The position numbers were made by a program, and so were the translations under genes. From NCBI RefSeq assembly GCF_003807585.1, contig NZ_RMBX01000016.1:62001-126000 (forward strand): a DNA stretch of 64,000 bases. Reading direction: 5' to 3'. Source of the stretch: Chitinophaga barathri (GTDB lineage Bacteria > Bacteroidota > Bacteroidia > Chitinophagales > Chitinophagaceae). Every line of letters starts with the position of its first letter. The stretch's first letter is position 1. Below the pieces are notes generated by a model. It had not been told where the DNA came from. It did not search any database and was given only the letters and a program-made list of their open reading frames with translations. Below are positions 51,872-64,000 of this stretch, piece after piece.

Positions 51872-52354
51872 TTATGCTTCTTCATCCCTGATCTTCCGGA
51901 TTTTTTCTAATTCGATAACATCAATCTGATCTTTCGGACGATTTACTACCTTTTTATTCTCAATGAGGTGATTAATATGTAGGAATGGGATAGCAACCCC
52001 CTCAATGTCAGCAATTGAAGCCATTTGCAAACATTCATCAAAAGATAACTGCTCCAAGCCTTTCATATTACCAAGAATATCCAATTCGATTCCCTTACAG
52101 ATAGTAATGTTTGAAAATCCAGGTATAAAGGGAATTGTTTCTAAAGGTTCAAGATCACCATATCCTAATTGCACAAAAGCTGCTCTCAGTCTTTTTCTAT
52201 TTTCCAGTGTATCTTCCAACCACATATCAAGATCCTCCGTACTCCGGTTAAATCCATGGAAACGAGTTGCAAAGCCACCAACCATAATATATCTGACCTT
52301 CTTCTCATTCAACGTCCGCCAAAACCTGATCAGTTCTTCATCCAGGAGGTCCAT
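51872..52354 (-). CDS. Nucleotidyltransferase of MNT/DUF6036 type
   Basis: The 160-residue protein has the nucleotidyltransferase core MVGGFATRFHGFNRSTEDLD followed by MWLEDTLENRKRLR, and a second conserved segment PFLHINHLIENKKVVNRPKD. Such stand-alone NTases occur in toxin-antitoxin and defence modules. A small gene ends 5 bp upstream (52360-52539) on the same strand. The stretch is visibly AT-richer than its neighbours, suggesting recent acquisition. Confidence 0.8.
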   Translation of the reverse strand: MDLLDEELIRFWRTLNEKKVRYIMVGGFATRFHGFNRSTEDLDMWLEDTLENRKRLRAAFVQLGYGDLEPLETIPFIPGFSNITICKGIELDILGNMKGLEQLSFDECLQMASIADIEGVAIPFLHINHLIENKKVVNRPKDQIDVIELEKIRKIRDEEA

Positions 52355-52668: not shown

Positions 52669-55600
52669 CTAGCCTCTCTTTCCAAAAGGCAATATCCTCC
52701 CTATCGTCCCTTTGATCAAGGTTTTCGCAATACCCGTCGTAAGCTGTATAGCCCCGCTCACCGCCATATTCATTAATTGCTCGCCGGATTGTTTGTCCAG
52801 CCGGAAGGCGGGCGGCGGATTGTTTTCATCCACCATTCTCACTCCGCTCATGCTGGCGCGATAGGCGGCCGTGCCGGGGTAATACATCGCGATATCGTCG
52901 CTCATATATTTTTCCAGTTTGTCAAAATCATGCCGTTCCAGTTCGTCCACCGGGCAGCAGTCCTGCCGGTCTTTCGGACGCATAATGAGCGGGTACGGAT
53001 CGCAGGCCTGTATCATAAAGAGCGCGGCCCGGTCTATGTACAATTCGCTTTCTCCATTTTCCTGGTACACGGCGATAAAACAGGTGATCCTGGATTTTAA
53101 CGCGGTCACCCGTACGGACATATGCACCCATTCGTCAACAGCGGCGGCTTCCACCCATACAATGTCTTCCGAGACGGGATTGGTGCCGCCGTTGGGATCG
53201 ATGCCGATCCTTGCCATTCCCCTGCTGCGGGTGGGCAGGTGATAAAAAGTAGTGAATTCATAATCCCAGCCACAGTTCGCACAGATGCTCTGCCGTATGC
53301 CCGCGATCCCGGAGCCTTCTATGGTCACGCCCTGCGCACGCTGGCCATCCCTGCAAATGAACTCATCCGGGATAAAATAAGCGGCTTTAAAAGGCGGCAC
53401 GTTCGAGTTTTCCGGGTCTATGATGAGCACCGGCGAAGCAAAAGGCTGCCATTCGTTGGCCACGATCGCGTCTTCCTGCGTATTGCGCGCTTCCTTCTGC
53501 GGTTTGTAACGGAAGCCACCTTCGAAATCGGCGTTTTGAAGCTCCGTAACGGTGACGAGCGAATAGGCCATGCCCACGCCGCCGTCATCGTCCTGCACGG
53601 TCACCTTGGCCACGTAATTGCCCTTGCAGGTGTATACATGCGAAGCGGAGGCGATGCCCACCCCCTGCGGTGATTTATTTTTCTCGCGGATAGTTGCCAT
53701 TTTGATATGACCGTCCCCGCTATCCCAGGTGCCTACATGCGAGTCGCACCAGCCCGCATCTATAAATACGGCGTCGAGGCGTACGGGCTGATTCCTGAGC
53801 ACGCAGAGGCGTTTGTAGGTGAATACTTTAGGCGCCACGTTCGTGACGTTCACGGTCATGACGGCTTCACCCACGCCGCCGGCACTGTCCTGCACGGTGA
53901 GGCGGACGGTATAGGTGCCATTGTCGCACCAGGCGTGCTCCGCGCTGGCAGTGCCCTGCGCCTGGGGTTCTTTGTTGGTTTCAGTGACGGAGAGCGTTTG
54001 TGGCGCCGTATTATCGCCGAAGTCTATGACCGCTTTGTGGGTATCCAGCCAGTTATCATCCGTGAATACCGCTTTCAGCGTCACCTTTTCCCCTTCTTCC
54101 ACCGTGATCACGGGTAATTCAAAACTAACCACCGGGGCCACGTTTTTCACATTCACGCGGGTGTAATGTTTGGTGGTGGCACCGCCGGTTTCATCCACCT
54201 GTATCTGCACGCGTGCAACATATACGCCGCTCTTTCCGAAACGGTGGGATACATTGCGGAGGGTGAACGATGCGCCGTCTCCCGCCAGCCAGTGGGCTTT
54301 TGAAGTAGGTTTGTCCGCACCGCCGTTGAAGTTCACAAAGGCGTTGCCGGTTACGTTGTACGGGCCATGAGAGCGGGCCATATCTTCAGAAGTGAGCGCG
54401 TGCGTACTGGTGATGATCATATTGCCGGCGAACACCAGGCCGCTCGGTTCTATCACCACGGGGTTTTCAAAACGTGCCTGCACATTACCGATAGCATCCA
54501 GGCTACCCGGCCATGCACCGATGCCCGTCACTTTCCCGGATTCATCTTTTGCCACTACCCCGCCGATCTTCGAAGCAATACTTTCCACCACCGCCATAAT
54601 GATCAGGCCAATGATAAGGCCGATGATACCAAAGGTGAGGAAACCGAGGAAAGCCACCAGCAGCCAGGCTCCTGCGCCAAGGTCCACATCGGGGTCGCCG
54701 ATCAGCTCATGCTCCAGCATCTGCGTGCCGTCTGATTTATCTACCCATTTGAGTTTTACCTTTTGGTCAAAACCGGCGTCTATATCGATGCTGTCCAGCA
54801 CGGCATCTACGATCGTCACTTCCCCGTTCACGCTCAGCTCGCCGGTAAGGAGGTCCAGGCCGATGCTGTTGAGTTTTACGGTTTTGCCTTCCACCGGTTC
54901 ATCCAGCGTGGTAGGCAATGTACCGTATTGATCGGCCACGGTCTCGTTGAATTCCTGCCGCACTTTGGCTTCGCTGGTAGCGATCGCAAAGTCGCGGCCC
55001 GCGGGCACAAAGCTGGTCACCGCGCCGGGATTGCCGCCTCCGCCGCCGTTGATGCAAAGCGCAAAGCCATTGCTGTAGGCCTGTGGGGTTACATCATTGA
55101 TGGTGGTGGTGCCGGTGGGGTCTTCCACTTTCCATACCTGTATTTTCTGCCGCGCCACCAGTTCGTCCCGCACGCGGGCGGCGATAAAACCTTCTATCTG
55201 CGCCATGGTGGGCACAAATACTTCCACGTCGCCAAAGGCGTGAAGAGGACCGGCGGCGGCGGAACTGAAGTTTGTTTTGATGAGCGCTTCCAGGTCGTAG
55301 CCGCCGATGGAAGCGGCATTTTTGTTGAAGGTATAATTGCTGCCTTCGTCGCCGGAAGCGGGTGTTACGTTTTCCAGCGTAACGGTGGCGGTAGAGGTCT
55401 TCACGAAGATGCGGTCCGCTGCTTCCGTATATTCCGCCAGCATTACGGCTTTCCCGGTGATGCCCATGGGCGTGCGGAGAGAAAACCCGGCAAGGCTGCC
55501 GGTGATATCATAAAACCGAAGGTAACAGGGGATGATCACTTTCACATGCGTGGGGTCCGGCTTTTCGATGGTGATCTTACGCGCGGGATCATTCACGTCA

Positions 55601-56172
55601 TCGTACAGTTCGGTATGTACCTTCATGCTGAAGGGGCCGAAAGAAATGGTGGGGTCCGGCGTGATCTGCGAAGGGATGGCGCCTTCCTGGTATTTTTTAT
55701 GTACAAACTCTTCGATGGCGGCCGTGGTAATGGGCGCAATGGGATCGCCGCTGGTGATGGACACGCTTACCGCGTCCGCGGGCATGGCTGTGAAGTCCGC
55801 CCCTATCTCATGATTGGCGGTATTGATTTCCCGGATGGGCACACGCACGTGCACGTCCGCCGTGATATCGAACAATTTGGCCGCATCGATCGGCGGGTTG
55901 GCGATCTCAATATGATTGATGGTGCCCAGCTTGATGCGGACGCCGTTCACGCCGGTATCCATTTCCAGGTCCAGTTGTTCCTTCGGTATCTGTACATGCC
56001 CGCTGGCCACCTGGTAGGGGCCGAAGCTGATCGTATTGGGAATGTTGACATATTCAGGTATCACACCGGGGCCGCTGGCATCGCCGCCGGATTTCCATGC
56101 GGCCAGCAGCAATTGTTTCAGGGCGGGAACGGTGAGTTGCGCGATCACTTCAAAACCATGCGTGTTTGCCAT
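52669..56172 (-). CDS. 1167-residue PKD protein with candidate TULIP/P47-like N-terminus
   Basis: No signal peptide. The N-terminal ~490 residues (MANTHGFEVIAQLTVPALKQ at the start, repeated beta/helix pattern with Gly-Pro turns such as ISFGPYQVASGHVQIP) look like a two-lobed lipid-binding TULIP/P47 fold; this is by eye only. Residues about 497-530 are a hydrophobic segment (LVAFLGFLTFGIIGLIIGLI). Two PKD-type domains follow (about 677-850; FGDNTAPQTL, WDSGDGHIKM), then a jellyroll-like domain (about 855-1010) and a basic tail. It is the largest gene of the isoprenoid locus. Function unknown. Confidence 0.6.
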   Translation of the reverse strand: MANTHGFEVIAQLTVPALKQLLLAAWKSGGDASGPGVIPEYVNIPNTISFGPYQVASGHVQIPKEQLDLEMDTGVNGVRIKLGTINHIEIANPPIDAAKLFDITADVHVRVPIREINTANHEIGADFTAMPADAVSVSITSGDPIAPITTAAIEEFVHKKYQEGAIPSQITPDPTISFGPFSMKVHTELYDDVNDPARKITIEKPDPTHVKVIIPCYLRFYDITGSLAGFSLRTPMGITGKAVMLAEYTEAADRIFVKTSTATVTLENVTPASGDEGSNYTFNKNAASIGGYDLEALIKTNFSSAAAGPLHAFGDVEVFVPTMAQIEGFIAARVRDELVARQKIQVWKVEDPTGTTTINDVTPQAYSNGFALCINGGGGGNPGAVTSFVPAGRDFAIATSEAKVRQEFNETVADQYGTLPTTLDEPVEGKTVKLNSIGLDLLTGELSVNGEVTIVDAVLDSIDIDAGFDQKVKLKWVDKSDGTQMLEHELIGDPDVDLGAGAWLLVAFLGFLTFGIIGLIIGLIIMAVVESIASKIGGVVAKDESGKVTGIGAWPGSLDAIGNVQARFENPVVIEPSGLVFAGNMIITSTHALTSEDMARSHGPYNVTGNAFVNFNGGADKPTSKAHWLAGDGASFTLRNVSHRFGKSGVYVARVQIQVDETGGATTKHYTRVNVKNVAPVVSFELPVITVEEGEKVTLKAVFTDDNWLDTHKAVIDFGDNTAPQTLSVTETNKEPQAQGTASAEHAWCDNGTYTVRLTVQDSAGGVGEAVMTVNVTNVAPKVFTYKRLCVLRNQPVRLDAVFIDAGWCDSHVGTWDSGDGHIKMATIREKNKSPQGVGIASASHVYTCKGNYVAKVTVQDDDGGVGMAYSLVTVTELQNADFEGGFRYKPQKEARNTQEDAIVANEWQPFASPVLIIDPENSNVPPFKAAYFIPDEFICRDGQRAQGVTIEGSGIAGIRQSICANCGWDYEFTTFYHLPTRSRGMARIGIDPNGGTNPVSEDIVWVEAAAVDEWVHMSVRVTALKSRITCFIAVYQENGESELYIDRAALFMIQACDPYPLIMRPKDRQDCCPVDELERHDFDKLEKYMSDDIAMYYPGTAAYRASMSGVRMVDENNPPPAFRLDKQSGEQLMNMAVSGAIQLTTGIAKTLIKGTIGRILPFGKRG

Positions 56173-56280
56173 TTGCAGGGGTTTTATGGGGATTTAACAT
56201 GTTGCGGTTCAGTGCCGCTGATTATCGGTATTGATATCGTATTGTGTTTGTCTTAGTGTTCTGAGTTATGCCGGTGGATG

Positions 56281-56934
56281 TTATTTTGTATTGCCATTCG
56301 AACGGTTCATCCGGAAACTGATATTGCGCAGGGGCAGCTTATCTTTTTGTTTCACGAGCGCTTCAGCCACGCTTTGCTGCGCCAGCTGCGGATGAGTGGC
56401 TTCCAGTTTGCGGTATTCCAGCAAAGGGGCTATCACCGCGTGTTTTGCGCTGAATGTTTCCAGCGGGTCGGTTACTTTCCCTCCCACTATCTTCACCGGT
56501 TTTTTAACGCTCTCCAGGATGGCGTCTACTTCTTCTTTGGGCAAAGCCAGCTTCACCGGGCCGGGGGCGGCCGCTTTTGCTTTGGCTATTGATTTATCTG
56601 GTTTCACTTCGCTGGAAGCAGCTGTTTTGGAAAGCACGGCGTTGAGGTTTTGTTGCAGCGCGGCGGCGTCACGCAGGTCGAAGGGTTTGCCGGTGACGGC
56701 GAATATCTGCGCCTTCAGTGTTTCCACTTTAGCAGCGCCTGTTTTACCAAAACGGATATGCGCGGTGATCTCTTCCTTCGCTTCGGGGCTGAAGGTGTAG
56801 CCAATTTTTTCCAGTGCCAGCAAAGGATTGGCGAGTGCGAGCAAAGTAAGTGAAGGATCTTTGCCATGTTGTTCGAGAATACGGGGCATCTGCTGTTGCA
56901 ATTCTTTCAGGGAGGAAATTTTTCCTTTTTCCAT
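56281..56934 (-). CDS. Hypothetical protein of the isoprenoid locus
   Basis: The 217-residue protein is basic and low in complexity in its middle (AKAKAAAPGPVKLALPKEEV). Its N-terminus is helical: SLKELQQQMPRILEQHGKD and LALANPLLALEKIGYTFSPE. There is no signal or membrane segment. It lies 108 bp upstream of the 1167-residue protein gene, both on the minus strand. A TAAATTTG box lies at 57008-57015. Family not recognised. Confidence 0.6.
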   Translation of the reverse strand: MEKGKISSLKELQQQMPRILEQHGKDPSLTLLALANPLLALEKIGYTFSPEAKEEITAHIRFGKTGAAKVETLKAQIFAVTGKPFDLRDAAALQQNLNAVLSKTAASSEVKPDKSIAKAKAAAPGPVKLALPKEEVDAILESVKKPVKIVGGKVTDPLETFSAKHAVIAPLLEYRKLEATHPQLAQQSVAEALVKQKDKLPLRNISFRMNRSNGNTK

Positions 56935-57007
56935 AAGAAGCGTTTTTATTGGGGCGAATGATATGCAGTACCGTTGTGCTGTTGAATTGGGGCTCGGGGT
57001 GATATGT

Positions 57008-57015
57008 CAAATTTA
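57008..57015 (-). promoter_or_regulatory. -7 promoter box TAAATTTG (minus strand)
   Basis: A perfect TAnnTTTG match about 75 bp upstream of the start at 56934. It could drive the two minus-strand genes of the locus. On the plus strand a near match TAAATTCG (57049-57056) precedes the reductase gene. Confidence 0.4.
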
Positions 57016-57073
57016 AGGAAAACCATGGAGACTGCATGTTATTTTTCGTAAATTCGGATATAAACCAAACCCC

Positions 57074-58528
57074 ATGAAACTGCATGTAACCCCGCAGTAC
57101 GATACGGATGTGCTGATCATCGGCGGCGGCCCTGCGGGCGCTTCCTGCGCATATCACCTCGCCACGCAGGGTATACAGGTCACCATTCTCGATTACCAGC
57201 CCTTCCCCCGCGATAAGGTATGCGGCGACTTTGTAGGCCCTGTAGCCATACGGGAGCTGGCAGGCATGGGCATCGATCAGTACGAAGCTTTCCGCAAGAC
57301 CAATGTGATCACCCAAGCGGCCCTTTACCTGGACGGCAAACCGATGATAACCAAAAACATCCCGTTGGTAAGCGGCATCCCCGACCATGGCCGTGTGATA
57401 CCCCGCATGGAACTGGACGACTGGATACTGAAAGCCGCCGTCAAAAAAGGCGCAAAACTGCTGGCGGGCAGGCTGCTGGATTACCAGGTGTTCAGCAACG
57501 GCGTGCTGGCGCATCACAAAAAAGGATCGTTGTTCGCCAAAATGATCGTAGGCGCTGATGGCAGCAGTTCTACCGTGGCGCGTATACTCACCGGCAGCAA
57601 GCCGCAGGCGGAAGACAGGATACTGGCCGTGCGGGCATACTACAAAAACGTGAAGTGCATGCCGGACCAGGCCGAACTGTATTTCACCTCTCAGAGTTTC
57701 CCGGGTTATTACTGGTTTTTCCCCACCGGCCCCGATACCGCGAATGTGGGCGTGGGTATGGTACAGGAGAATTTCCCGCACCAGGAAGTGAACCTGAAAA
57801 CGCTGCTGCTGGAGCTGATCGAAAAAGATCCCGCGCTGAAAGCAAAGATCGGCGATGGCGAACTGGAGGACAAAGTGGTGGGCTGGCCGCTGGCCACCTA
57901 CAATCCCGATCATCCCAAAACAGCGGACCGGCTTGTGCTCGTGGGTGATGCTGGTGGGCTCATCAACGCGCTAAACGGGGAAGGCATACAATACGCCACG
58001 CTCAGCGGGCGCTGGGCGGCGGAGACGATCACGGAATGTATCCGGCGGGAGCAGTTCCATGAAGCCGCGCTGGCGCCTTACAAAAAGAAGATCGTGGAAG
58101 AGCTGGGGTTCGACATGTCGCTTTCCAACACGCTGATACAATTTATCCGCAACCGCAATCTGAACCCGCTCTGGCTGAAACTGCTGGACATCATCGTTCA
58201 GAAAGCCCGCCGGGATGATGAATACGCGGATATCGCCGGAGGCATACTCGCCGGCCTCAAACCCGCAAACGAAGCCATGAGCGCTTCATTTATCGGCAAA
58301 AGCATAACGCAGGGTGTGCAGACGCTGGCTACGGACGCTTTCCGCGAAGCAGCCAAAGGGCCCGGGAATATCACCCGGCTGGCCTGGGGCGGGATGATGT
58401 TCGGCATGCAGACCGCCGGCGATCTGATGCAGCATCCCGGGAATTATCTCAGCTGGGGAAAAGGCATTGTAAGTAATTCTTTTCAGCTCGCGGGGCATGT
58501 GCTGAAAGGTATCAATAATCGCGGTTGA
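57074..58528 (+). CDS. Geranylgeranyl reductase family flavoprotein
   Basis: The 484-residue FAD enzyme has the Rossmann motif DVLIIGGGPAGASCAYHLA (Gly run at about 17-22), DKVCGDFVGPVAIRELAGMG, VGADGSSSTVARIL, and the second FAD-binding block LVGDAGGLINALNGEGIQYA (about residue 291). This fits the geranylgeranyl reductase family, which saturates double bonds of prenyl chains, but members also oxidise other substrates. A long C-terminal helical extension (about 380-484) is unusual. It runs convergent to the polyprenyl synthase gene and overlaps it by 17 bp. Confidence 0.85.
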   Translation: MKLHVTPQYDTDVLIIGGGPAGASCAYHLATQGIQVTILDYQPFPRDKVCGDFVGPVAIRELAGMGIDQYEAFRKTNVITQAALYLDGKPMITKNIPLVSGIPDHGRVIPRMELDDWILKAAVKKGAKLLAGRLLDYQVFSNGVLAHHKKGSLFAKMIVGADGSSSTVARILTGSKPQAEDRILAVRAYYKNVKCMPDQAELYFTSQSFPGYYWFFPTGPDTANVGVGMVQENFPHQEVNLKTLLLELIEKDPALKAKIGDGELEDKVVGWPLATYNPDHPKTADRLVLVGDAGGLINALNGEGIQYATLSGRWAAETITECIRREQFHEAALAPYKKKIVEELGFDMSLSNTLIQFIRNRNLNPLWLKLLDIIVQKARRDDEYADIAGGILAGLKPANEAMSASFIGKSITQGVQTLATDAFREAAKGPGNITRLAWGGMMFGMQTAGDLMQHPGNYLSWGKGIVSNSFQLAGHVLKGINNRG

Positions 58529-59552
58529 TCATATACAGGATCATACTTTCAATAAACTGTTTGTCCTCCGATTCGGGCATATGCCCGAATACCGTATAAA
58601 ACTCTTTCAGCGCGGCGCCGGCAAGGTTTTGCGCGTTTTTCCTTCCATACGCGATACAGTCGTATTTTTTCATCATCTTCATCACCCACTCCGTTTCGTC
58701 GGGCATCCGTAAAGAACGTTTTTTGGCAAGATAGGTTTCCAGCTTTTGTTTCTCTTTCTGATTGCAGGTATTCAGCAGGTAGATCAGCATCAGCGTGCGT
58801 TTGCCTTCCAGCACATCGCCGCATATTTCTTTGCCGTATTTATCCTGGTCGCCTACAAGATTGAGCAGATCGTCCTGTATCTGGAACGCTGCGCCGAGAT
58901 AATAACCAAAGCGGTTGAACACATCCGGGTCCATGGCGCCGCCGGAGCCGATGATGGCGCCGATGCGCAGCGGGTGGATGCAGGTATACCAGCATGTTTT
59001 TTTGAGTATCATGCGGAGGTAATCGTCTTCTTTGAGATCACAGAGATTGTCCTGCCGCCAGCCCAGCTCCATAGCCTGGCCTTCCACGCTTTCCAGCACC
59101 ATATGTTCTATTTCCGAAAACACCTGCCAGGTAAGGCTGGGGCCAAGCGTAAAGATGTTGTGCATCAGCGGGCGGATGCTGAGCACGTTCATGGCGTCGC
59201 CTACATTGATGGCGATGGGCACGCCGTGTGCGGCATGCATGGTGGGGCTGCCGCGGCGGTCGTCGCTTTCGTCCTCGATGTCGTCGTGTACCAGGAAGGC
59301 GTTGTGAAACAGTTCCAGCGCAATGGCGGAGTTCATGGCTTCGGCGGTGGTGCCGCCAAAGATATTGCAGGCCGCAAGGCATAGCCCGGGCCTGAAACCT
59401 TTACCGCCGCGTTTGGGGTAAAGCGTTACCAGGTCGTACAGATATTTCTTTGGCTCGCGGTCCGGGATAAAATCGATCAGGGTTTTGAGGCTGAGGTCCC
59501 GGTACGCGCCCAGCTTCGCCAGGAATTGTTCCTGTATATCGGTGGAGAGCAT
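58512..59552 (-). CDS. Polyprenyl diphosphate synthase (FPP/GGPP synthase family)
   Basis: The 346-residue enzyme joins isopentenyl units to allylic diphosphates. The first Asp-rich motif is in LVHDDIEDESDDRRGSPTMH (about 88-100), with the upstream Lys/Arg patch FRPGLCLAACN. The second motif is QIQDDLLNLVGD (about 225), where DDxxN replaces the usual DDxxD. Product length cannot be read from this. With the geranylgeranyl reductase-type gene next to it, a C20 product is a natural guess. The gene is downstream of the 245-residue protein gene (3 bp gap), same strand. Confidence 0.88.
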   Translation of the reverse strand: MLSTDIQEQFLAKLGAYRDLSLKTLIDFIPDREPKKYLYDLVTLYPKRGGKGFRPGLCLAACNIFGGTTAEAMNSAIALELFHNAFLVHDDIEDESDDRRGSPTMHAAHGVPIAINVGDAMNVLSIRPLMHNIFTLGPSLTWQVFSEIEHMVLESVEGQAMELGWRQDNLCDLKEDDYLRMILKKTCWYTCIHPLRIGAIIGSGGAMDPDVFNRFGYYLGAAFQIQDDLLNLVGDQDKYGKEICGDVLEGKRTLMLIYLLNTCNQKEKQKLETYLAKKRSLRMPDETEWVMKMMKKYDCIAYGRKNAQNLAGAALKEFYTVFGHMPESEDKQFIESMILYMINRDY

Positions 59553-59555
59553 GCG

Positions 59556-60293
59556 TTAAACTACTTTCACCAGCAGGGTGGCCTTGAGGTTCGACACGTT
59601 TTTTCCCTGTATAAAACAGGTATAGGAGCCTGGTTTTGCCCCATCCGGCACTTTGATGGCGATCTTCACACTGCCGTTGCTGCCAGGCTGTAAAACGAGC
59701 GGATTGGGGGTGTACGTGATAGCCGCCGCGGCTATCTGGTTGTTGGACGCGTCCATCAGCGCGGTGTTTGTGAATTCGATGGTCTTCACGTCCGTTTTAC
59801 TGTCGTTTTCCAGCGTGATGGGCACTTCCAGGGCCTCGCCCGCTTTCATGTCTTTGGGCGCGTGGATAAGGGGGATCTGAACAGGGTCTTCGGCCTGCGG
59901 GCTGCCATCCGTGCCGTCCGTACCGCCCTGCCGGATATTGATGATGCGGGAAGCGAGGCTGCCTGCATTTTTCACGGCAATGGTGGTAAAGTCTATGAGG
60001 AGGTCTATCACATCATGCGCATCCTGCCTGAAGCGGGTAAGGAGCTCTTCCTTGTTCCCGCCCCTGAGCTTCTGTACGTCCGTGAGTTTGCCTTCTATCT
60101 GTTTGGCCGCCACAATGCCGCGCGCAATCTCCTCTTCGAGGATATTGGCTGCTTTCAGCACTATTTTGGATGCACTGTCTACGATATTACCCAGGCCTTC
60201 GAACTGGATGCCGGTGGCGGGAGCGCTTTTTTCGGGCGCCGGTTGTGTGGCAGCCACCGGCTCCGCCGCTTTTTGCTTCGCTTTTACGGGCAT
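59556..60293 (-). CDS. Hypothetical protein with C-terminal Ig-like domain
   Basis: The 245-residue protein begins with a proline/alanine-rich stretch, followed by a helical part (about 30-130; KIVLKAANILEEEIARGIVA) and a C-terminal beta domain (about 145-245) with LQPGSNGSVKIAIKVPDGAK followed by PGSYTCFIQGKN. The latter resembles NEW3/Ig-like modules. No signal peptide. It precedes the polyprenyl synthase gene by 3 bp, so the two are one operon. Function unknown. Confidence 0.65.
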   Translation of the reverse strand: MPVKAKQKAAEPVAATQPAPEKSAPATGIQFEGLGNIVDSASKIVLKAANILEEEIARGIVAAKQIEGKLTDVQKLRGGNKEELLTRFRQDAHDVIDLLIDFTTIAVKNAGSLASRIINIRQGGTDGTDGSPQAEDPVQIPLIHAPKDMKAGEALEVPITLENDSKTDVKTIEFTNTALMDASNNQIAAAAITYTPNPLVLQPGSNGSVKIAIKVPDGAKPGSYTCFIQGKNVSNLKATLLVKVV

Positions 60294-60327
60294 ATAGGGG
60301 ATGTTTTGGGGGATGAACGATATACTG

Positions 60328-60654
60328 CTAACCTACGGGCGGTACGTGCGTTGTGGGGCCGCCGGGGTTATCATTCGGTTTGTCATTGGGCTTATCGTTG
60401 CTGTCCCGGCAATTGAACAGGCGGGTGACGCCTTTGATCACGATCTCGGCGAACGGCTGTCCCAACAGGTTGATACCGATGCGGTAATTGCTTTCGGCGC
60501 AGATAGGCTCGCATAATTTGATACATAACGGAACGGCCTGTCCCTGGTTGTGCAGCATGCTGACCTGTAAAGGTTTTTCGTTGAAAAAGTGCTCAAGGCG
60601 GGCGTTTCCCTCTTTTGGCCACTCGACAATGTGGACATTGTGATCTTCTGCCAT
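60328..60654 (-). CDS. Small hypothetical protein, first gene of the isoprenoid operon
   Basis: I start at ATG 60654 (MAEDHNVHIVEWPKEGNARL), giving 108 residues; a longer frame from 60852 would run through the promoter. The C-terminal tail is rich in Asn, Asp, Lys and Pro (NDKPNDKPNDNPGGPTTH). The core is a small beta-rich domain (NYRIGINLLGQPFAEIVIKG). It is followed by the 245-residue protein gene with a 34-bp gap. Function unknown. Confidence 0.6.
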   Translation of the reverse strand: MAEDHNVHIVEWPKEGNARLEHFFNEKPLQVSMLHNQGQAVPLCIKLCEPICAESNYRIGINLLGQPFAEIVIKGVTRLFNCRDSNDKPNDKPNDNPGGPTTHVPPVG

Positions 60655-61567: not shown

Positions 61568-62155
61568 ATGATGAATGAGGAAGTGCTCCACCAATATTTC
61601 CGCCAGGTATGTGACGACGGTGACCAGGATGCCTACAATGAGCTGTACAAAGCTTTGTGTTCGCGCCTGATCCACTTCTCCGCCGCTATTACCGGCAGCT
61701 GGCAACTGGCTGAAGAAATAGTGTCGGACGTGTTTATAATGCTCTGGCGCAAACGGGCACAGCTCTCGAACGTAGCCAATCCCGTGGTATACCTGTACGT
61801 GTGCACGCGCAACCAGAGCCTCAACGCCGTGCGCCAGCACCGCCGGCACCAGCACCTGAGCCTGGACAACCTGGATACAGACGCCCTCGCCATCCTTCCC
61901 GATACCGAACAGAATATGCTTTCCGCCGAAGTGACCCAAAAGATAGAATCCGCCATCCGCAGCCTCCCCGCCCGCTGCCAGCTGATATTCCGGCTGGTGA
62001 AACAGGACGGGCTGAAATACCGCGAAGTGGGCGAACTATTGCAGATATCCCCCAAAACGGTGGACGCCCAGCTGGCCATCTCCGTTAAAAAAATAGCCGA
62101 AGCGATCCGCCTGGATATGCCGGCAGATCTCGCCCAATCTTACCTTCTCCGCTAA
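61568..62155 (+). CDS. FecI-type ECF sigma-70 factor
   Basis: The 195-residue sigma factor has region 2 (NELYKALCSRLIHFSAAITG, WQLAEEIVSDVFIMLWRKRA) and region 4 (IRSLPARCQLIFRLVKQDGL with the helix-turn-helix LKYREVGELLQISPKTVDAQ). It precedes a FecR gene by 59 bp and then an STN-domain TonB receptor, the usual Bacteroidota arrangement for polymer-responsive loci. The -10/-35 signals it recognises cannot be seen. Confidence 0.93.
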   Translation: MMNEEVLHQYFRQVCDDGDQDAYNELYKALCSRLIHFSAAITGSWQLAEEIVSDVFIMLWRKRAQLSNVANPVVYLYVCTRNQSLNAVRQHRRHQHLSLDNLDTDALAILPDTEQNMLSAEVTQKIESAIRSLPARCQLIFRLVKQDGLKYREVGELLQISPKTVDAQLAISVKKIAEAIRLDMPADLAQSYLLR

Positions 62156-62214
62156 ACCGAAAAAAAATTTCTAATCCTTTAGGGAACTTTTATTCCTGAA
62201 ACTGTCCTTGTATT

Positions 62215-63270
62215 ATGATGCATGATAAGATCTGGAACCTGCTGGCCAAAAAAATGGCAAACCAGTTGCCGCCTGAAGAGGAAAAGGAGCTGGAACGCCT
62301 GCTCCAGCAGCATCCTGACGCTTCTTACGTAAAGGAAGTAATGATGCAGCCCTGGAAAGACAAACACAAACGCTTCAGTCCGGAAGAAACGGACCAGGCT
62401 TTGCAACGGCATCGTCAAAGACTGGAAGCCGCCATGGAGACCGAAGAGGAGCCTGAGCCCGGTACCGGCCGCATCCGGCGGATGATATTCCGCCTGACCG
62501 GTGTAGCTGCCGCGCTGGCGCTTGCGTTTTATGTGGGGTACGCCTTGTGGCCCAAACAGAAGGGCCAGGCCACTGAAGAATTGCAGCAAATGGTGACCCA
62601 TCAGGGCTCCCGCTCGCAGATCAAACTGCCGGACGGCACCACCGTATGGCTCAATGCGGGCAGCCAGCTGGACTATCCCAAACAGTTCGCCGGCAAAACC
62701 CGTGAAGTGACGCTCGCCGGTGAGGCCTTCTTTGACGTAACCAAAGACGCCGAGCATCCTTTTATTGTCAAAACAAACACCTTTTCCATCAGGGTACTGG
62801 GCACCACCTTCAACGTACGCGCCTACCCGCATGAAGACAATGCCGTAACCTCCCTGGTGACCGGCGCCGTGGAAGTGGTGATGGACAAAAAGACCGTGCG
62901 CCTGATGCCGAACGAAAAACTCAGCGTATCCACCCTTCAGCCCGTGAGCAGCGGCGTGGCGGACCGTGAGACTATCGTGCCCGCGCCCGCCGTGAAATCC
63001 ACGCTGACCGAAGTGAGGGACAGTGTGATCGCGGAGACGGCCTGGGTGCAGAACAAACTCGCTTTCAAATCGCAGCCCCTCGAAAAAGTGGTCATACTGC
63101 TGGAGCAGTGGTATGGCGCGGATATCCGCTTCAGGAACGAAGATAAAAAACAGGTGAGCCTGACGGCCGTATTTGAAAAAGAATCGCTGACGGAGGCATT
63201 GGAAGCGCTGGAGCTGACAGGATCATTTCATTTTAAGAAAGATGCCGCGGGCATTATCTGGATAGAATAA
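62215..63270 (+). CDS. FecR-type anti-sigma factor
   Basis: The 351-residue protein has a short cytoplasmic N-terminus, one membrane helix (about 85-108; LTGVAAALALAFYVGYALW), then the FecR domain (QIKLPDGTTVWLNAGSQLDY; LAGEAFFDVTKDAEHPFIVK; VLGTTFNVRAYPHED) and a C-terminal DUF4974 domain (FKSQPLEKVVILLEQWYGAD). It would sense the periplasmic STN/TonB signal and control the sigma factor just upstream. Confidence 0.93.
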   Translation: MMHDKIWNLLAKKMANQLPPEEEKELERLLQQHPDASYVKEVMMQPWKDKHKRFSPEETDQALQRHRQRLEAAMETEEEPEPGTGRIRRMIFRLTGVAAALALAFYVGYALWPKQKGQATEELQQMVTHQGSRSQIKLPDGTTVWLNAGSQLDYPKQFAGKTREVTLAGEAFFDVTKDAEHPFIVKTNTFSIRVLGTTFNVRAYPHEDNAVTSLVTGAVEVVMDKKTVRLMPNEKLSVSTLQPVSSGVADRETIVPAPAVKSTLTEVRDSVIAETAWVQNKLAFKSQPLEKVVILLEQWYGADIRFRNEDKKQVSLTAVFEKESLTEALEALELTGSFHFKKDAAGIIWIE

Positions 63271-63664
63271 AAAACAAAATCAATTTTCGGGTGTAAACAG
63301 GAACAGGTAAAACGAATGCGGGAATTATAGTATATCGGGACATGCCCGCATTGAATATTTCGCTAACAAACAGAACAAATTAGAGCCGGATGCGGGAAGA
63401 TATACCTGCATTTAACATGTGAAAACTTAACAGGCTGTGGGTGCAACGGCATGACCTTGCACACATTTAATTTCTCGAAAAAGGATCATTACATTTTTAA
63501 CGACATGCCGATGGTATAACAAGACACACCAGCACAAATTTTTAATTAAAGCAATAGGGCCAAAAAAAACGGGAAATGTTCGCACCATTCCCCGTGTAAT
63601 TACCGGCTAATGACGTTGCTATGCGTATACATGAACTATTTCAATTAACCGACAATTCAAAGGT
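63271..63664 (+). other. 394-bp gap between fecR-like gene and the TonB receptor
   Basis: No gene. A hairpin AATGCGGG (63316-63323) with CCCGCATT (63346-63353) lies early in the gap without a T run. The remainder is AT-rich and probably carries the sigma-factor-dependent promoter, but I could not identify its elements. Confidence 0.5.
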
Positions 63665-64000
63665 ATGAAAAAATGTCAAGAGGTGAGATGGCTTCCACCC
63701 CGGCGAGGCCTCAAAAAACTACTCCTTATTATGAAGCTCTCCGCGATCATCGTTTTTGTTGTATGCATGCAGGCTAGTGCCTCCGTACGCGGGCAGAACA
63801 CGATTTCCGTAAAATTATCCCGCACCAATCTTGAGAAGGCATTCTCACTCATTGAGCTCACAACGGAGTACCGTTTTGTGTACAATGATGATCATCTCCC
63901 GCTCACCACCAGGGTGAGCCTGGACGCCAGGAACTGGCCCATCACCAAAGTGCTGGACCAGATGCTGCAAAATACACAGCTCAGCTACCGCCTGATGCCG
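63665..64000 (+). CDS. STN-domain TonB-dependent receptor (SusC-like), N-terminal fragment
   Basis: The open frame runs from ATG 63665 to the window end (112 codons) and is cut there. It has a basic N-terminus, a membrane signal (LLLIMKLSAIIVFVVCMQAS) and then an STN domain: ISVKLSRTNLEKAFSLIELT and VSLDARNWPITKVLDQMLQN, as in SusC receptors controlled by FecI/FecR. The body and any SusD gene lie beyond the window. Confidence 0.85.
   Translation, partial: MKKCQEVRWLPPRRGLKKLLLIMKLSAIIVFVVCMQASASVRGQNTISVKLSRTNLEKAFSLIELTTEYRFVYNDDHLPLTTRVSLDARNWPITKVLDQMLQNTQLSYRLMP

Follow-up and report, generated by a model that had tools for sequence, protein, structure and literature searches.

Why are genes for an isoprenoid synthase and a geranylgeranyl-reductase (GGR)-type flavoprotein grouped with four genes for uncharacterized proteins in Chitinophaga barathri? 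The locus occupies positions 52669-60654 of a 64,000-nucleotide stretch of contig NZ_RMBX01000016.1 (positions 62,001 to 126,000 of the forward strand, RefSeq assembly GCF_003807585.1), hereafter the window. The six genes, denoted A to F, encode A (1167 amino acids (aa); 52669-56172, minus strand), with an N-terminal half without a family, a hydrophobic stretch, PKD domains and a C-terminal region with no assigned family; B (217 aa; 56281-56934, minus strand), with no confident family and seen only at loci that have A; C (484 aa; 57074-58528, plus strand), the GGR-family flavoprotein; D (346 aa; 58512-59552, minus strand), a putative trans-isoprenyl diphosphate synthase of a distinct group resembling geranylgeranyl diphosphate (GGPP) synthases; E (245 aa; 59556-60293, minus strand), with an amphipathic N-terminal part and an immunoglobulin-like (Ig-like) C-terminal domain; and F (108 aa; 60328-60654, minus strand), a small protein. 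Judged by sequence, D and C are members of known families, and what is unusual is their companion genes. The answer that we favor, giving it an even chance of being right, is that the locus would be a transferable prenyl-lipid cassette in which D, partnered by E, makes an isoprenyl diphosphate and C hydrogenates its chain, with the remaining proteins serving as intracellular anchors or scaffolds for these enzymes.

We found all six genes in the open frames where an earlier note on this DNA had placed them, with the operon-like spacing that it described (34 bases between F and E, three between E and D); C and D are convergent and overlap by 17 bases. F was taken to start from the ATG at 60654, which is within a longer open frame of 174 aa, and the F of locus L004 opens with the same residues. 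When 84,980 species genomes were scanned for A by a pattern-based method, three further loci were recovered (91, 61 and 58% identity), in Chitinophaga chungangae (L004), a metagenome bin labelled Bacteroidales (L005) and Pinibacter aurantiacus (L006); G180 was counted once with L006, given the same A identity and alignment length. The six genes are kept together in all three, and thus form one block in 4/4 genomes having full-length A, so the grouping is not due to chance. Gene order and strands in L004 and L006 are identical to those of the window. In L005 all six genes are on one strand and C is placed beyond A, at the other end; that C has been relocated yet is still in the group argues for a shared function. 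Among the flanking window genes compared, matches were seen in L004 only.

D belongs to PF00348 (197.7 bits versus a cut-off of 27), in agreement with its previous assignment as a polyprenyl diphosphate synthase. The first Asp-rich motif, DDIED (59271-59285, minus strand), conforms to DDxxD in 14/14 members of what we call the D group, and the second, DDLLN (58860-58874, minus strand), in which Asn replaces the third Asp, conforms to DDxLN in 14/14, a form also present in a Collinsella enzyme outside the group. With both motifs kept, an inactive D is unlikely. Preceding the first motif, HN[AG]FLxHDD is found in 14/14 group members and in 0/8 other enzymes. A 22-row tree separates the 14 D-type rows from the eight others by one branch (support 85/96, not starred); those eight are two other synthases of the window genome and six other enzymes. 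D is 33.6% and 29.3% identical to those two synthases, both of which are outside the group. By these comparisons, D is distinct from the housekeeping enzyme and a member of a rare group. The G088 and G283 synthases (34-35% identity, outside the group in the tree) were excluded, and a match on viral contig L110, at 36%, was left out of the analyzed set. The best PDB relatives of the D profile are the GGPP synthases 1wmw (8.3e-54) and 1wy0 (8.7e-45), which we take to be from Thermus and Pyrococcus, and the best NCBIfam model for D is a short-chain synthase, with a score under its cut-off. The D product probably has a chain of about C20, given that the solved and curated enzymes closest to D make GGPP or short chains.

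Searches with D gave matches in 7/294 genomes of the window's family at an E-value of at most 1e-45 (six after dropping the housekeeping-like G088; the five congeners of the window genome in that set had no match) and in 3/395 genomes across the phylum at an E-value of at most 1e-50. At the 1e-45 threshold, 3/119 genomes in the class of G351 matched, leaving G351 and G618 once G283 is removed, as did 1/98 in the class of G284. In a plasmid collection of 72,556 records, 196 matched D; among the best 20 of these 196, three exceed 40% identity to D (two from Ruegeria and one from Kitasatospora), and the next-ranked match, from Collinsella, is at 34.6%. The same three records alone were returned for a Ruegeria D query at an E-value of at most 1e-40. 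The D group therefore is rare and scattered, given the few hits in the family, phylum, class and plasmid sets, and is also found on Ruegeria and Kitasatospora megaplasmids. We compared 14 D-group loci: the window, L004-L006, L064-L066, L072, L073 and L082-L086.

The gene most constantly associated with D is E. In the sister loci of four genomes of the window's family (G119, G055, G161 and G716), the genes run F-position protein, S (~262 aa), R (~216 aa), Q (~218 aa), E and D. C follows D in the first three; the G716 contig (L085) breaks off within D, and a separate contig of that genome carries a GGR-family gene. Neither A nor B was found in these loci. We built a profile from eight E proteins and ran it over 343 frames from 16 sources, a set without the L066 helical protein, the L066 D, one Q and one F-position protein, which were overlapped by longer frames. 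The profile matched the E proteins themselves, a fusion of the E helical part to an F-like part in G284 (L072, 2e-21), the Ig protein adjoining D in both Ruegeria (1e-16 and 4e-16) and the Q proteins of the sister loci (6e-9 to 1e-11, and 5.8e-12 for the Q protein absent from the frame set, scored directly); matches to the S, R and L073 proteins were weak (3e-4 to 0.05). In Kitasatospora (L066), a 139-residue protein overlapping the start of D matched the profile when scored directly (1.1e-10), as well as the E helical part by BLAST (1.1e-6).

The sole E-profile match on the 853-kb Kitasatospora plasmid is the 139-residue protein beside D (9.6e-6), and the sole match on the 811-kb Ruegeria plasmid is the Ig part adjoining D (1.8e-6). 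Across 238 genomes, the helical part of E matched in G000 and G284 only, both times beside D, and the Ig part alone matched, weakly, in seven others. Queries of the plasmid collection with E, the E/F fusion or the A N-terminus gave no match, and the L066 helical protein matched only itself. Overall, E or a part of E is clearly beside D at 12/14 loci (window, L004-L006, L064-L066, L072 and L082-L085) and, with a weak match in L073 (E-value 0.016), at 13/14; in L086, whose 6.3-kb contig has D close to one end, no E part was detected beside D. In 10/14 loci E or its helical part is directly upstream of D, overlapping D in L066, and in Ruegeria and L073 an Ig protein is downstream of D instead. 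Whole or in part, E accompanies D in three phyla. The presumed helical region of E (residues 36-120; 59934-60188, minus strand) has a mean hydrophobic moment above that of shuffled sequences (z of 1.7 to 3.6 for 8 E proteins), and the C-terminal part gives weak matches to Ig-like or similar domains. We propose, on the basis of adjacency and domain shuffling, that E may be a dedicated partner of D.

C passes TIGR02032 (209.6 versus a cut-off of 158.8), so its designation as a GGR-type flavoprotein holds, but it does not reach the cut-off of any equivalog among the 25 listed of 146 models and thus is given no substrate assignment. PMC6309074 describes three motifs for this family: an active-site Cys, YxWxFPx7-8GxG, and GGG or GEG. 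The YxWxFP motif of C is YYWFFP (residues 212-217; 57707-57724, plus strand), and Cys50, YxWxFPx8GxG and GEG are kept in 4/4 copies from loci with A. Since a GGR-family protein can reduce a sterol (PMC12004948), GGPP should not simply be assumed to be the substrate of C. An ether-lipid route also was considered and set aside: a PcrB-type gene over the cut-off is present elsewhere in 5/5 window-family genomes tested and not in G284, but all five carry D, and with no D-less control genome the gene does not discriminate.

Although C is in the locus at 7/14 D-group loci, other redox enzymes are found near D elsewhere. In G284 (L072:9129-12356), which from its genes we take to be a Chlorobium relative, a same-strand run consists of an amidohydrolase with a 55-residue hydrophobic stretch, the E-helix/F fusion and D. 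The Ruegeria loci (L064:7871-16496, with the same order in L065) encode a cyclase/AAA/TPR protein, a family 1 encapsulin, a DUF3237 protein, an HpnE-like flavoprotein and D, with the Ig protein convergent to D; the flavin adenine dinucleotide (FAD) enzyme adjoining D in L064 is HpnE/desaturase-like (4e-23, below the cut-off). In L073 (6974-16319), D is in an overlapping or near-abutting run with an Ig protein and three proteins without an identified family, and a 1080-aa ferritin-like/Rieske/amine-oxidase protein is encoded on the other side of D, ~2.4 kb away and on the opposite strand. Given the C, HpnE-like and amine-oxidase/Rieske companions, a redox flavoenzyme is frequent near D, but is not of one family. 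With A and B replaced in the sister loci by other amphipathic-plus-Ig proteins, E-D, usually joined by a redox flavoenzyme, seems to be the constant core and the remaining genes exchangeable.

Collectively, these observations suggest how the putative cassette might work. D would condense isopentenyl diphosphate and an allylic diphosphate into an all-trans chain, while the amphipathic region and Ig-like domain of E may bind D and set its working place or its chain length, as adjacency and domain shuffling would suggest. C, an FAD enzyme, presumably would hydrogenate double bonds of the chain or of a chain-bearing lipid. F, B and the large A would make up the cell-internal structural side, with A probably attaching the assembly to a membrane or lipid surface through a 46-residue hydrophobic stretch. 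A bolder version, which we regard as unlikely, is that E is a new kind of partner subunit that makes a GGPP-type synthase a surface-bound, redox-coupled prenyl-lipid factory and that, with A, F and the sister amphipathic-plus-Ig proteins, it would form a prenyl-lipid body coated by amphipathic helices together with Ig/PKD domains in the cytoplasm; transfer would have carried this system between Bacteroidota, Pseudomonadota and Actinomycetota.

Several observations weigh against the cassette. Some concern C: GGR-family genes are common, with at least one over the cut-off in 11/12 genomes searched (all 3 D-less congeners among them) and three in the window genome, so the pairing of C with D carries less weight than that of E with D. 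No C relative was detected at L064-L066, L072, L073 or L086 among the proteins or frames compared (L073 gave one 28-residue nucleotide-binding match and nothing beyond it, and L066 has no C-type flavoprotein in the four proteins compared or in the annotation). The motifs also drift in the sister loci, where 3/3 readable C copies keep the Cys but have IYWMFP or IFWMFP, GxA and GDG. For D, the branch support is the unstarred 85/96 given above, and chain length is not readable from the sequence; a small residue five places before the first Asp motif is typical of longer-chain enzymes. The Ig part of E also matches other Ig proteins (7 of 9 genomes), and the two Ruegeria loci are not mutually independent, nor are the two Chitinophaga loci. 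A relation between F and the F-position protein of the sister loci is not supported (hhalign probability 0.4%), and the family scans found no terpene cyclase or prenyltransferase among the six genes. Finally, PKD domains and invariant Cys residues would be in keeping with export, but a plain hydropathy scan, with no signal-peptide program used, gave no hydrophobic N-terminus in the six window proteins; the earlier note had likewise reported no signal peptides for A, B, E and F.

The strongest rival, itself rather unlikely in our judgment, is an ordinary specialized terpenoid cluster in which D and C would supply a saturated precursor and the other proteins would serve in tailoring, transport or resistance, with no structural role. 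The patchy distribution of D (6/294 genomes in the family, 3/395 in the phylum) and the changing accessory genes are typical of such clusters, and the Ruegeria and L073 loci have other redox enzymes. However, among the six genes, only C and D are over the cut-off for an enzyme family, and E keeps company with D in three phyla.

The amphipathic regions raise a second alternative, that E, Q and R form the surface layer of a prenyl-lipid body or granule, in the way that phasins cover polyester granules, with A and the L072 amidohydrolase docking by hydrophobic stretches and D and C making a stored isoprenoid. An N-terminal amphipathic region combined with an Ig-like part, as in E, is also seen in Q and R. 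The link between E and Q is solid (hhalign 97.5%), and those between E and R (9.9%) and E and S (46.6%) are weak. In 18 proteins (E, Q, R and the L066 and L072 E-part proteins), the amphipathic regions have z of 1.7 to 5.1 if helical. A long hydrophobic stretch is present in A (residues 496-541, 46 residues; 54550-54687, minus strand; 4/4 orthologues), where it is the only strongly hydrophobic stretch among the six window proteins, and in the L072 amidohydrolase, and is absent from the other proteins scanned. The granule explanation is attractive as lipid-body proteins use amphipathic helices and hydrophobic stretches. Weak Phasin_2 (PF09361) matches also were obtained for 2/4 Q and 1/2 R proteins scanned (E-values of 0.02 to 0.14). 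However, all are below the curated cut-off (at most 15.5 bits versus 24.9), E has no PF09361 match at an E-value of at most 1, the membrane hairpin is only putative, and Ig or PKD domains are not known to us from any granule protein; we consider this alternative improbable. Separately, we noted that the R proteins (L082:11821-12471, L083:7532-8173, L084:7054-7716 and L085:4126-4788) have an invariant CC...CPPHC and a conserved WQSW..H.YCE tail, and possibly are metal-binding though apparently cytoplasmic.

A terpenoid or prenyl-lipid system, one possibility raised by the earlier note, is supported, as are the families of D and C, the operon-like spacing and the synteny of all six genes in three other genomes. 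A further element, a TULIP/P47-like N-terminus of A, found no sequence support in Pfam, NCBIfam or a PDB sequence profile. P47, whose structure has been solved (PMC7020563), gave no family match at an E-value of at most 1 for whole A or at most 10 for four N-terminal members, in searches where HMMER filters drop most matches above ~0.1, and the A N-terminal profile matched no PDB sequence at an E-value of at most 10, in a copy not confirmed to include the P47 entry. In 247 phylum genomes that profile gave four non-window hits (1.4e-4 to 9.3e-4), which we regard as spurious; by eye, that in G431 is membrane cytidylyltransferase-like and that in G375 ProA-like, and no frame around the G281 hit matched again. 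With whole A as the query of 195 family and 395 phylum genomes, the listed matches other than those in G000 and G180 are confined to residues 566-893, which cover the PKD part and its margin, and a PKD-rich query can mask other A matches. The PKD domains themselves are as the earlier note had them (about residues 603-880; 53533-54366, minus strand; PF18911, 93.3 bits versus a cut-off of 27, 9.4e-27, 3 stretches; PF00801 also matches). We did detect a possible internal duplication of ~120 residues in A (residues 10-128 and 145-249; 55426-56145, minus strand), with an hhalign score of 27.05 (E-value 8.8e-4, probability 23%) reached in 0/150 column shuffles (best 19.6), from one of six pairs of segments picked by eye in four sequences. 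This suggestive duplication could reflect a tandem TULIP pair or any of many other folds, and is not specific. Carriage of the prenyl lipid of D and C by a tandem TULIP domain of A is, in our judgment, very improbable: the duplication and the hydrophobic stretch speak for it, but no P47 or other TULIP match was found by Pfam or PDB sequence profile, and A has no match at an E-value of at most 0.01 in the L072, L073 and L082-L086 frames.

The two small proteins and the surroundings offer few further leads. F has four Cys (44, 48, 52 and 82) invariant in 4 copies, and the window copy has no Pfam match at an E-value of at most 10. B has no match in the frames of L072, L073 and L082-L088; matches of 2/4 B members to DNA polymerase A (best 8.5e-4, with many PDB chains from 0.0079 over a ~35-residue stretch in the PDB search) and of one member to HrpK1 (3e-4) were taken as chance. 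None of the six proteins has a PADLOC defense match at an E-value of at most 0.01. Just beyond A, 51872-52354 (minus strand) gives weak matches to DUF6036/AbiEii nucleotidyltransferases. On the other side, ~0.9 kb past the F start codon, translations read by eye from 61568-64000 suggest an extracytoplasmic function (ECF) sigma factor, a FecR-type anti-sigma protein and the start of a TonB-dependent receptor.

If the cassette reading is true, mobile cassettes that bring along structural proteins of their own are a further setting for prenyl-chain synthesis and hydrogenation. In bacteria these reactions are known mostly for quinones, chlorophyll and carotenoids, and isoprene chains of this kind occur in archaeal membranes and chlorophyll tails. 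A, B, E and F, together with the Q, R, S and F-position proteins of the sister loci, would gain an address and a likely partner, and the set to be tested is small: D with and without E, and then C. With an encapsulin gene near two D relatives, the loci also bear on the compartmentalization of bacterial prenyl synthases. An arrangement of D, C and E with changing amphipathic-plus-Ig proteins was not found in a full-text literature search judged by titles and the starts of abstracts, with most subscription journals outside its coverage.

The likenesses to known systems are partial. P47/OrfX2 TULIP proteins (PMC7020563 and PMC6791001) resemble A by an earlier impression and the possible internal duplication, but not by any sequence match in the tests run. 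HepS-HepT heptaprenyl/hexaprenyl synthases have a small helical partner of the catalytic subunit, and E directly upstream of D is similar by analogy only: E carries an Ig-like domain and has no match to the two-component families at an E-value of at most 1. The family 2 encapsulin cargo polyprenyl transferases (NF041169) are the second-best NCBIfam model for the window D, the third for the L082 D and the best for the Kitasatospora D, and in Ruegeria a family 1 encapsulin shell gene is upstream of D with two genes between. However, D does not reach the NF041169 cut-off (177.7 bits versus 450), none of the six proteins, to which the scan of the window was confined, matches an encapsulin, and the synthase domain of D starts from residue 36, without the disordered N-terminus of 50-100 residues that PMC8346489 gives for the cargo enzymes. 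Like the geranylgeranyl and digeranylgeranylglycerophospholipid reductases (TIGR02032, 3oz2), C exceeds the family cut-off and keeps the three motifs, but differs in falling short of the equivalog models listed. The solved GGPP synthases 1wmw and 1wy0 share the Asp-rich motifs with D, whereas D is in a group of its own, with HN[AG]FLxHDD and the partner gene E.

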